DNA from: a bacterium
Lineage (GTDB): Bacteria; Electryoneota; JAOADG01
Length of the DNA stretch: 64,000 nt
Reading direction: 5' to 3'
Assembly: GCA_026417415.1 (NCBI GenBank)
Contig: JAOADG010000001.1
Coordinates: 7,055-71,054 of the forward strand
Under the pieces are notes generated by a model, which was not told where the DNA came from, did no database searches, and saw nothing but the letters and a program-made list of their open reading frames with translations. Shown in pieces: positions 49,985 to 53,779 of the stretch; position 1 is the first letter of the stretch; each line of letters starts with the position of its first letter. A program made the position numbers and the translations under genes.

Positions 49985-50734
49985 ATGGATATAACTAAAC
50001 AAATTGCGTTTATCACTGGTGGATCAAGAGGAATAGGGCGTGCTATCGCAATTCGTCTTGCACAAGCTGGTGCAGACATTGCGATGAATTACTTAAGGAA
50101 TCGAGCCGCTGCTGAAGAAACCGCTAAAATTATTGAAGACACGGGTTCACGATGTTTGCTTTTGAAAGGGAATGTAGCTGAAGTTGAAAAAATCCCAGCA
50201 ATGTATGAATGCATTCAAAAGGAATATGGAAAATTGGATATTCTTATCTCTAATGCTGCTTCAGGGGTTATCAAACCTGCATTAGAACTTACTCGAAGAC
50301 ATTGGTCGTGGACTTTAGATATTAATGCAGGTGCTTTTTTACCATTGGTTCAGCACGCAGTTCCTTTGATGAAAAATGGTGGAAAAATAATTGCTGTCAG
50401 TAGTTTAGGCGCTGTTCGTGCAATTCCGCAGTATGCAGCAGTTGGCTCTTCAAAAGCTGCATTAGAATCATTGGCAAGACATCTGGCAGTAGAACTTGCT
50501 CCTAAAAACATTAATGTAAACGTAATTTCTGCAGGTATCGTAGAGACGGATGCTTTGAGTCATTTTCCACACAAAGATGAGCTATTAGAAAGTTCCAGAA
50601 TAAAAACACCTGCAGGGCGATTGGTGACACCAGACGACGTAGCAGATGTAGCATTATTTTTGTGTTCTCCAATGGCTAAAATGATCTATGGACAAACTAT
50701 AGTCGTAGATGGTGGTTACAGTATCATGGCATAA
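49985..50734 (+). CDS. fabL: Enoyl-ACP reductase III (FabL-like SDR)
   Basis: Short-chain dehydrogenase resembling Bacillus FabL, the NADPH-dependent enoyl-ACP reductase of fatty acid synthesis. NADP site FITGGSRGIGRAIAIRLA; LDILISNAASGVIKPALELT; catalytic Ser near 140, Y150 and K157 in PQYAAVGSSKAALE (FabL spacing Y-X6-K); then INVNVISAGIVETDALSHFP and GQTIVVDGGYS. 249 residues. The NAASGV and TDALSHFP segments favour FabL over FabG. G-rich ribosome site just upstream. Ends 12 bases from the convergent membrane cluster. Confidence 0.87.
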   Translation: MDITKQIAFITGGSRGIGRAIAIRLAQAGADIAMNYLRNRAAAEETAKIIEDTGSRCLLLKGNVAEVEKIPAMYECIQKEYGKLDILISNAASGVIKPALELTRRHWSWTLDINAGAFLPLVQHAVPLMKNGGKIIAVSSLGAVRAIPQYAAVGSSKAALESLARHLAVELAPKNINVNVISAGIVETDALSHFPHKDELLESSRIKTPAGRLVTPDDVADVALFLCSPMAKMIYGQTIVVDGGYSIMA

Positions 50735-50746
50735 AATCAAAATTGA

Positions 50747-51334
50747 CTAAAACATTCCTCCTAACCATTCAAATAAAAGAAAATCAAATCTTGAAATCAA
50801 CAGCGATAATCTACCCATCACTGTAGTACCATATGCTGCACCAAAGCTTAGCATTAAAAAACCTATCCCGATTTTTGAAACTTTTGATAAATGTTTATGC
50901 TCTAAAGCAAAAAAGAAATAAGTTAAAGAAGTTAAAGTTCCCAGAATAATCAGCAAGTTGTTTATTGAAGTCGGTGATAGCATTGTACCCTGAATTTGTG
51001 CGATTAAAAAACCTTGTGTGTACTGAATCATATTTAATGCTGCACCAACGCCGATATAAATTGCGATAGGGTATCGTGCGATCCATTGATATTTTGGAAT
51101 AAGACGTAGCAATAAAAGGAGGCCTAATACACCTGGTATTAGAGGTAGATAATCACCCAAAAGAACTTTATCAACTACATTCGGTTTTACAACACTGTGC
51201 CATTGTACAGCAATATAATACCCTGTAGAAATTCCAATAAAGATATGTTCTGCAAGACGGTAAATCGGATTATCTCGATATAGAAAACTAAAAATCGCAA
51301 GTGTAAAAAATGCTGCAACCCAAGTACCGATCAT
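50747..51334 (-). CDS. Polytopic membrane protein, part of a four-gene cluster of unknown function (gene 4)
   Basis: 195 residues, mostly hydrophobic, with about six membrane spans: WVAAFFTLAIFSFLY, AEHIFIGISTGYYIAVQW, YLPLIPGVLGLLLLLRLI, PIAIYIGVGAALNMIQY, NNLLIILGTLTSLTYFFFAL and KIGIGFLMLSFGAAYGTTVM. No catalytic motif is seen. Its ATG overlaps the stop of the preceding cluster gene (ATGA), so it is translationally coupled. It is the last gene of the leftward cluster, ending 12 bases from fabL. Confidence 0.75.
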   Translation of the reverse strand: MIGTWVAAFFTLAIFSFLYRDNPIYRLAEHIFIGISTGYYIAVQWHSVVKPNVVDKVLLGDYLPLIPGVLGLLLLLRLIPKYQWIARYPIAIYIGVGAALNMIQYTQGFLIAQIQGTMLSPTSINNLLIILGTLTSLTYFFFALEHKHLSKVSKIGIGFLMLSFGAAYGTTVMGRLSLLISRFDFLLFEWLGGMF

Positions 51335-52191
51335 TTTTTAATTCGCATCGCTGAAATGTTTTTAAGAATTATATTTCGAACAACGGATACATTCCCTAAA
51401 AAAATGAAAAAGATAATTACTAAATGAGCCACAGATTGTGCATCCATTCCACGAGTGGCTTTACCTTTGGTACCAACAAGTTTTTCATATTCTGCAGCAC
51501 CTTTCAATCCACCTAAAAGTCCAACCAATTGTCCTGTTTGGACAAATGCTTCATATTGTGGAATACTTACTGCAGTAACACCTGCGGCTAACGGTACACC
51601 AAATTGTGCTAGACCTATTGTTATGTAAAAATCTACTGTTGCTCCATGGGCTACATCCACCATAAATGATAAGTGACGATAACTTGGAAACCTTGAAAAA
51701 ATTTCCATTTCTTGAGTCGAATTCCCACGAAAATCTTTAGGAAAGGATGTTGTCCATGAACTTCCTAAAGCCATTAATAAAACATCATTTCCAGGTTTAA
51801 AGCCGAGATTGACGTAATGTTTGCCATATTCTCGTTGAAATTTTGCTGCCAATGGTTCTAATACACGTTCTGCGATTGGACCAGTTTCGGGAAAATTGGT
51901 GTAAACAATTAGTACTTTACCTGACTTCATTACATGATGACATAATGAAATAGCCATCGGTAAACATTCTGGAATAGAGGACGGATCAAAATCAAAAGCG
52001 ATTAAAACGGCTGAAGTATCTGGGAGGTTTTCTATACGATCATAAACTGCTTTTACATGTTTTGTTACGGTAAGTGGTAAATTGAGAGGAAACAATAAAG
52101 GAAAAAGTATGGATAATGATACAAATAAATACACCCAACGGCGATCAAGTTTTCCTAATGCTTCCCAAATTGGTTTTACTTTCCTAACCAA
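51331..52191 (-). CDS. Membrane-anchored alpha/beta protein, four-gene cluster (gene 3)
   Basis: 286 residues: one span near the N-terminus (about 18-38), a soluble alpha/beta domain (about 45-250) and a second span near the C-terminus (about 254-272). The domain has AVLIAFDFDPSSIPECLPMA, KVLIVYTNFPETGPIAERVL, LGFKPGNDVLLMALGSSW, FMVDVAHGATVDFYITIGLA and a conserved-looking RGMDAQSVAHL. This looks like a Rossmann-like or receiver-like core, but no known catalytic set is recognised. TTG start at 52191 lies inside the end of the previous gene (16-base overlap). Confidence 0.72.
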   Translation of the reverse strand: MVRKVKPIWEALGKLDRRWVYLFVSLSILFPLLFPLNLPLTVTKHVKAVYDRIENLPDTSAVLIAFDFDPSSIPECLPMAISLCHHVMKSGKVLIVYTNFPETGPIAERVLEPLAAKFQREYGKHYVNLGFKPGNDVLLMALGSSWTTSFPKDFRGNSTQEMEIFSRFPSYRHLSFMVDVAHGATVDFYITIGLAQFGVPLAAGVTAVSIPQYEAFVQTGQLVGLLGGLKGAAEYEKLVGTKGKATRGMDAQSVAHLVIIFFIFLGNVSVVRNIILKNISAMRIKK

Positions 52192-52793
52192 GATCGCTCA
52201 ATCCCTAAAAGTGTTTTAAGACCTGTTGCGATAAGACCTAATGCAGCACCAATCGTCAATGCACGCTGTGCTGCTAAAGAAGGAACGCTTAGGATCCATT
52301 GTGAAATTTCTGGAAATTTAGACCACAAAATTTCACCAATAGGCACCTTTCCAATCATTACCAATACTGCTGCAACAAACAGCAATGTGGCGTGAAGATT
52401 GCGAACACGAAAGGCACGATAACTTGCTGATGAAACATAAAATGCAAGTAATGCAAACATTGTTGATTGCATCGGATTTTGAACATTTTTAAACAACCAT
52501 TGAAAAGCACCATTCGGTCCGTAATCTACAAAAATACCTAGTGTAACCATAAGTAATAAACAAACAACTAATACCAAGCTATAATACCATCCATCATATT
52601 TACGTTGAATGCGTTGAAGGTGTGATAAAAAAATGCTAATTCCTCCCATTAAATAACTAAAACTTAATAGAATGATTACCCAATCCATCATTCCATTTTG
52701 AAGTTTCGTAAAAAGAGGAATACGGAAAAAGAATTCAACCAAAATGATTAAACCAGCAATTCCACAAATGATAATCGCTGTAAAACGTAGCAT
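52176..52793 (-). CDS. Polytopic membrane protein, four-gene cluster (gene 2)
   Basis: 205 residues from the ATG at 52793, one base after the stop of the first cluster gene, with GGAA upstream; an in-frame start at 52847 would overlap that gene by 53 bases. About six spans (FTAIIICGIAGLIILVEFFF, WVIILLSFSYLMGGISIFL, WYYSLVLVVCLLLMVTLGIF, MFALLAFYVSSASYRAF, ATLLFVAAVLVMIGKV and ALTIGAALGLIATGLKTLL). The polar segments are short. No known transporter signature is visible. Confidence 0.72.
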   Translation of the reverse strand: MLRFTAIIICGIAGLIILVEFFFRIPLFTKLQNGMMDWVIILLSFSYLMGGISIFLSHLQRIQRKYDGWYYSLVLVVCLLLMVTLGIFVDYGPNGAFQWLFKNVQNPMQSTMFALLAFYVSSASYRAFRVRNLHATLLFVAAVLVMIGKVPIGEILWSKFPEISQWILSVPSLAAQRALTIGAALGLIATGLKTLLGIERSWLGK

Positions 52794-52794
52794 G

Positions 52795-53739
52795 TTATTC
52801 CGTTTGAAACCAGTGGATAAAATCAGTCCAACCAAACCACGCTGCAAGAGTTCCTAAAACGATAAGAAGTCCAAACAGCGCCTTTGACCAATCTTGACCT
52901 AATATAGTACCTAATAAAATGGGTTCTCTAGATAAATAAGCACTAGCAGCGAATAGTTCTTCACCGATTAGGGTATAATCACAAGATGCAAGAAAAAAAG
53001 GAAGTTGGTGTGAATTCGCAGTACCTGCTATTTGTATAGCACCAGTAGTATTGCCTGCTTCAGAAATTACTAATGATTCTGCATAAAATTCACCTATAAA
53101 AAAATGTGCAGCAGTTTTTACACGAACCATATGCCCGGTGATTGCTGCAGCAAAAGCAAATTGGTTATCTGTGATGTATTGAACTCGATCAGGGGAGAAT
53201 AAATCGGGTCGTCCAGCTGTCAAATAACTTTGACGAAGAATTTCTTGTGAAGTACTCATCAATAAAGGAAAACGTGTCATGACATCTAAATCAACTTCGT
53301 ATGTCGCACATTCATATCCAACTTTAGAAAGAATAGCAATCCCTGCTAATGTTTGAATACGATCAACATCCATACTTCCGGGTACAAATAGAACTGGACG
53401 ACCCATTTCTGCTGCACGTCCCACTGCTTCATCAATTGCATCAAGGCCAGCAATTTTTCTTAGTGTTAAGGAGTGATTACGTTTTGCTAAAAACAAAAAC
53501 GTTAAAACAAGCGCCGAAATGATTATCAAAAAGATGAAAACATTCAGTCGCTCTGTTTTAAAAAGTGGTTGTATTTCAGGTTTTGATAAATGTACTTTGG
53601 AAGGTAAACTTTGTTGGTTATTCACTGCTATTTTTAAGGAATCAATCTGTACCTTTGTAGAGATTGAATTTCCAAAGCTAATTTGGAATGTACAAAAAAT
53701 TACTCCAATGATGAATAGGGATAGAGATAATGATTTCAT
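52795..53739 (-). CDS. Membrane protein with DUF6754-like domain, four-gene cluster (gene 1)
   Basis: 314 residues: a signal-like N-terminus (1-24), a short linker, a span (about 66-85), a soluble domain (about 90-275) and a final span (about 287-305). The domain has IAGLDAIDEAVGRAAEMGRP, LFVPGSMDVDRIQTLAGIAI, YEVDLDVMTRFPLL, ATYEVD, and FYAESLVISEAGNTTGAIQI. From memory this resembles proteins labelled DUF6754; I could not check. No function is known. ATG at 53739; only 40 bases separate it from the divergent rnd gene, so both promoters are packed together. Confidence 0.75.
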   Translation of the reverse strand: MKSLSLSLFIIGVIFCTFQISFGNSISTKVQIDSLKIAVNNQQSLPSKVHLSKPEIQPLFKTERLNVFIFLIIISALVLTFLFLAKRNHSLTLRKIAGLDAIDEAVGRAAEMGRPVLFVPGSMDVDRIQTLAGIAILSKVGYECATYEVDLDVMTRFPLLMSTSQEILRQSYLTAGRPDLFSPDRVQYITDNQFAFAAAITGHMVRVKTAAHFFIGEFYAESLVISEAGNTTGAIQIAGTANSHQLPFFLASCDYTLIGEELFAASAYLSREPILLGTILGQDWSKALFGLLIVLGTLAAWFGWTDFIHWFQTE

Positions 53740-53779
53740 AAATTAATTCATAAAACTATAGATAGTATAAGTATTCTAA

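Follow-up and report, generated by a model that had tools for sequence, protein, structure and literature searches.

Conserved gene cassettes headed by DUF6754 proteins as the membrane core of a candidate undescribed bacterial machine

Four groups of described proteins come closest to the locus reported here. DUF6754 (PF20539) is a Pfam family covering one domain of unknown function. The GlmL/MutL family (PF13941, TIGR01319, NF040745, NF040744) has an ASKHA-type core, and its members GlmL and Or-4 are thought to act in cobalamin-mutase repair. RnfC and NqrA are barrel-sandwich subunits, and RCK/TrkA-gated ion channels carry a Rossmann-like domain on membrane spans. The only known families that the present system touches are DUF6754 and, by relationship, GlmL. 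Its first gene (A) is a clear DUF6754 member, with the following genes B, C and D and the partner genes M, R, S and P outside that family. M has the ASKHA-type core in common with GlmL/MutL but differs in its length of about 600 aa, in its scores, which reach neither the subfamily nor the equivalog cut-offs, and in pairing with a membrane cassette rather than a mutase. The N-terminal part of R weakly resembles RnfC_N and biotinyl domains; however, R continues into a middle domain and ends in a KOW-like part, and the cassette neighbourhoods inspected show no recurring Rnf or Nqr partner genes. RCK/TrkA proteins are among the better fold matches of A and C, yet there is no sequence match, one of the two domains (that of C) apparently lies outside the cell, and the match strength (Z about 10 for both A and C) is no better than for many dehydrogenases and Sir2. 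Literature searches for DUF6754, PF20539, PF13941 and their combinations returned no paper on the system; subscription papers and preprints lay outside the search, and a prior description elsewhere cannot be excluded.

The window, that is, the whole 64,000-nucleotide stretch analysed, carries four minus-strand ORFs at 50747-53739 (Table 1). The first-pass annotation had described them as abutting or overlapping genes, headed by one resembling DUF6754, for two multi-span proteins and two proteins with a soluble domain between membrane spans. All four were present and their junctions were checked; hydropathy identified B and D as the multi-span proteins, and A and C as those with the soluble domains. 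The TAA stop of A ends at 52795 and the ATG of B stands at 52793, leaving 1 nt between them; a longer B reading from a TTG at 52847, given by the mechanical ORF list, starts inside A. The TAA of B ends at 52176 and C starts with TTG at 52191, an overlap of 16 nt, and the TGA of C and the ATG of D overlap as ATGA (51334-51331). The short gap between A and rnd, already pointed out in the first-pass annotation, presumably carries both promoters; the divergent A-rnd arrangement is also found in a sister genome (L051). Just downstream of the four genes, at 49985-50731 (+), lies a short-chain dehydrogenase gene whose score passes the cut-off that NCBIfam sets for the enoyl-ACP reductase FabL.

Table 1. 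Coordinates of the cassette genes and the adjoining gap, as positions in the window
Feature	Position	Strand	Details
Gene A, DUF6754 protein	52795..53739	(-)	314 aa; PF20539 E=2.3e-106
Gene B, integral membrane protein	52176..52793	(-)	205 aa; about 6 hydrophobic segments
Gene C, TM + Rossmann-like domain + TM	51331..52191	(-)	286 aa; AF2 model, fold search
Gene D, integral membrane protein	50747..51334	(-)	195 aa; 6-7 hydrophobic segments
A-rnd gap	53740..53779		40 nt; A (-) and rnd (+) divergent

A search of genome contigs with the single A sequence retrieved nothing, and a profile search recovered more than 571 relatives. Only the best 80 of these were examined as loci, so the named loci are biased toward the window A. 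These best 80 include Zixibacteria, WOR-3/Stahlbacteria, Latescibacterota, Cloacimonadota, Neomarinimicrobiota, Fermentibacteria/Aegiribacteria, Planctomycetota, Eisenbacteria, Coatesbacteria, TA06 and others. Loci from two genomes labelled with the phylum of the window are identical to named records, one of them Candidatus Hatepunaea meridiana, a member of Candidatus Electryoneota (FCB group) in the NCBI taxonomy, which makes this phylum the probable source of the window. For 75 of the 98 A genes in the 80 loci, a co-oriented B-C-D run comes directly next, and 13 of the 98 stand after another C-D pair, forming tandem cassettes; the 23 A genes without the full run mostly reflect contig ends, an extra interrupting ORF or crude gene calling. 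Genes within the 94 complete cassettes lie a median of 3 nt apart, with 89% of distances at or below 30 nt and 45% of neighbours touching or overlapping. This tight spacing, together with an A-B-C-D order kept across many phyla, places the coupling beyond chance. One genome (G097) has a split cassette, with S-A-B on one contig and M-D-C on another (contigs C9 and C33), and its sequences have diverged. ExbB/ExbD/TonB-like genes occur near the cassette at 11 of the 80 best loci, in several lineages (e.g., L103, L112 and L119). MetK/AhcY, glycine cleavage genes, PtsI, RNase D and ExbBD-TonB were considered as functional neighbours and rejected as lineage-specific synteny.

Profile searches of 118 genomes located A in 32; B and C occur in these 32 and nowhere else in the set, and D in 31 of them, the single D-less genome (G033) having a contig that stops inside gene C. 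Co-occurrence of A with B, C and D was highly significant (p about 1e-27 to 1e-29) and held at the family level (20 of 20 families with A; p about 3e-20, the total of 88 families being an estimate from genome labels); none of 14 control genomes contained A. The first-pass annotation would have been refuted had the four genes not been kept together or had they matched a named system. The identical 32-genome distribution of A, B and C and the gene order described above meet the first challenge, and Pfam, NCBIfam, PDB, fold and PADLOC searches, which returned no named system, meet the second.

Three DUF6754 genes are present in the genome carrying the window (2.2 Mb, 40 contigs), and each is the first gene of an A-B-C-D run. 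The neighbours of these runs (DnaK; hydrogenase; RNase D) all differ and share no common theme. The third cassette (L005 245-7479, contig C37) directly follows a run of Hdr-like and Mvh-type [NiFe]-hydrogenase genes that ends in a maturation-protease-like gene. Each of the three cassettes has one counterpart in the sister genome G001 across all four genes (66-80% identity), compared with 28-45% identity to the two non-counterpart cassettes. Over the 94 cassettes, the distance matrices of A to D correlate with r of 0.71-0.83 (shuffles at most 0.16), a correlation that shared descent predicts, and all four genes have the identical nearest neighbour in 50 cassettes. Judged by these sequence distances, cassettes are inherited as units.

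Gene A exceeds the curated PF20539 cut-off by a wide margin (355 versus 27 bits, residues 59-310). It consists of a signal-like N-terminus, a TM at about 62-86, a Rossmann-like domain at about 94-270 and a second TM at about 273-301; its AF2 model (pLDDT 87.7) is poor only in the N-terminal 60 residues. In many relatives an FN3 domain precedes TM1; it was detected only with the relatives' profile (matching titin and an FN3-like protein) and is lacking in the window A. The domain is predicted to be cytoplasmic by the positive-inside rule, since an FN3 domain before TM1 belongs outside and the mean K+R count rises from 0.79 before TM1 to 3.35 after it. Over 94 cassettes, mean identity is 62% in this domain versus 24% in the N-terminal part; constancy is confined to the inner domain, the outer parts being variable. 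About 23 polar residues of the domain are near-invariant, and the polar invariants of A include R108, E111, Q193, R206, E221, E227, Q236, Q245, E261, D283 and K286. The best VIA fold match is Sir2 (Z 11.8, rmsd 3.3, 138 aligned), followed by phosphoglycerate kinase (Z 10.5), RCK (10.3) and a CODH epsilon-type chain (9.6).

Gene C likewise has a Rossmann-like domain (about 44-240) between two TMs and gave a confident AF2 model (pLDDT 94.6). Its best VIA match is MT0777 (Z 11.1, rmsd 3.1, 138 aligned), with TrkA/RCK at about 10 and a CODH epsilon-type chain at 9.6. Mean K+R is high before TM1 (3.42) and after TM2 (4.15) and low after TM1 (1.23), from which the positive-inside rule would place this domain outside the cytoplasm. 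The C domain averages 39% identity over the 94 cassettes and conserves the polar residues E75, D153, Q221, Q252, H256 and N267; the last three belong to the second TM region, with H256 and N267 placed in the second span. Foldseek found nothing at E<=0.001 for either A or C. The Rossmann-like fold is widespread, and a ligand cannot be read from Z scores of 9-12 that many unrelated enzymes share; the VIA matches of both modelled domains show a fold class and not a function. Profile comparison found no similarity between A and C and hence gives no evidence that their two domains share an ancestor.

Genes B, C and D belong to no Pfam, NCBIfam or PADLOC family, and a PDB sequence search with these three and M yielded no credible match; the hit of B to MrpF (E 0.08) was not significant and was rejected. 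Profile comparison of B with D detected no homology. B (mean identity 43% over 94 cassettes) conserves S122, R126, R129 and R177, of which R126 and R177 rank as polar invariants; D (46%) conserves D21, N22, E29, Q113 and R175, all but D21 ranking as such. In each of B, C and D, conserved residues that are charged or polar are found within or close to membrane spans. A phage, plasmid or defence origin was dropped because no relative was found on viral contigs or plasmids and PADLOC anti-phage defence models did not match A-D, R, M or S at E 0.01.

The first-pass annotation proposed an undescribed four-gene membrane complex. That proposal stands for the membrane core and is incomplete for the whole, since a wider gene set includes M, R, S and P. 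M-R lies directly upstream of A in 19 cases among the best 80 of more than 571 loci; S, a small protein, and P, a membrane protein, are recurring cassette neighbours, and P-S-M-R-A-B-C-D forms a single run at two loci (L156 and L175). In profile searches of the 118 genomes, the number of positive genomes, with those that also have A in brackets, is 29 (28) for R, 31 (30) for S, 28 (27) for P and, at E<1e-100, 26 (25) for M. All four follow the profile of A (p 1e-18 to 1e-24), though often from other contigs. As R, S and P sit on three further contigs of the window's own genome (C33, C13 and C19), the association goes beyond neighbourhood. R stands alone on C33 (L143 6104-9104), beside an apparent pyruvoyl-type arginine decarboxylase, a SAM-decarboxylase-like gene and a cupin regulator. 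Every genome that has R, S and P has one copy of each, compared with one to three copies of A, which suggests several membrane modules and one common service set. M is absent from 7 of the 32 genomes with A; among these, the window's own genome (G000) has R, S, P and three cassettes with no M found, and its sister G001 has M, so that gene loss or an assembly gap could account for the absence. One genome (G034; assembly 80% complete) has R and M without A, which may likewise be an assembly gap.

M is a PF13941 protein (400 bits for the L055 member, above cut-off) that retains the ASKHA-type consensus motifs DCGSTTTK and DIGGATTD and stays below the NCBIfam cut-offs for GlmL (233/475 bits), Or-4 (217/600) and TIGR01319 (173/204). 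R comprises an RnfC_N/biotinyl-like N-terminal part, a middle domain and a KOW-like end; RnfC_N is matched weakly by 12 of 19 members (best E 1.6e-6), most of them below cut-off, with the L055 member at 24.8 against 25.6. That M, R, S and P merely form a cobalamin-mutase repair set present in the same taxa as A-D is scarcely credible despite the kinship of M to GlmL and Or-4, because M misses the GlmL and TIGR01319 cut-offs, no cobalamin-dependent mutase family recurs beside M at linked or unlinked loci, M-R repeatedly directly precedes A, and the shared profile still holds at the family level.

A-D are best read as the four subunits of one obligate complex in the inner membrane, with a ligand-binding domain at either face and a shared accessory set. 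Genomics supports the complex well: the conserved cassette, the shared phylogenetic profile and the folds are established computationally, and the physical complex, its fixed ratio and its sidedness are inferred from them. B and D together with the spans of A and C would build the membrane body, with the very conserved Rossmann-like domain of A at the cytoplasmic face and the more variable one of C at the outer face. The one to three cassette versions of a genome would be served by a single set of M, a putative ATPase of the GlmL/MutL group, R, a putative barrel-sandwich and KOW protein, S and P. We further propose that the complex may move or gate a small solute or ion: C, with the FN3 domain of A where present, would sense the outside, A would bind a nucleotide-like ligand or a partner inside, and M with R would load, remodel or re-activate the complex. 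As a whole, an obligate A-D complex moving or gating a solute or ion with M, R, S and P is our best explanation, tentatively held. Ligand-controlled transport or gating served by a GlmL-like ATPase set is the likeliest job yet rather doubtful, since transport is a guess and so is what M and R do, and the function of the complex taken alone is a guess that leans towards unlikely. The neighbourhoods show no recurring transporter family, substrate gene or regulator beside the cassette, and the lack of M in some genomes with A means that the system does not require an energising ATPase.

Conservation as strong as that of the A domain would also fit an enzyme, and the main rival to transport is a membrane-bound enzyme or redox complex: a nucleotide cofactor such as NAD would be used by A, and perhaps by C, with B and D as carriers of electrons, protons or a lipid substrate. 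The identity of A across phyla and its many near-invariant polar residues exceed what a simple docking domain needs; A matches Sir2 enzymes, both A and C match a CODH subunit, R is weakly like RnfC_N/NqrA_N, and one cassette of the window's genome lies directly 3' of the Hdr/Mvh-type hydrogenase cluster. However, the fold matches are common to many unrelated families, the hydrogenase linkage was not seen at other loci, A-D showed no conserved haem or flavin motif and no conserved cysteine cluster, and an extracellular NAD-type ligand for C would be odd. We regard the enzyme reading as unlikely. More unlikely still is a module of diderm bacteria for envelope building, export or sensing that works with energised outer-membrane systems. 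The external FN3 domain of many A proteins, the variable outer parts around a constant inner domain, and the nearby ExbB/ExbD/TonB-like genes would suit such a module, but the ExbBD-TonB linkage traces to a few related lineages and is missing from most loci, genes of this kind are common anyway, and no cargo or export signal gene recurs.

Returning to the A-D complex with its partners, the broadest proposal is an undescribed eight-part machine of many mostly uncultured phyla, with a core bearing ligand-binding domains on two faces in several interchangeable versions per cell, one shared GlmL-like ATPase, a biotinyl/KOW adaptor and two small partners; our confidence in it stops just short of even. 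A machine kept over at least 20 families and duplicated as a unit, with enzyme-like domain conservation, is important to its carriers. Eight gene families gain a common context, and DUF6754 becomes a testable system; as Gimesia-type Planctomycetota are among the carriers and this group has cultured members, it could be tested outside the uncultured lineages.
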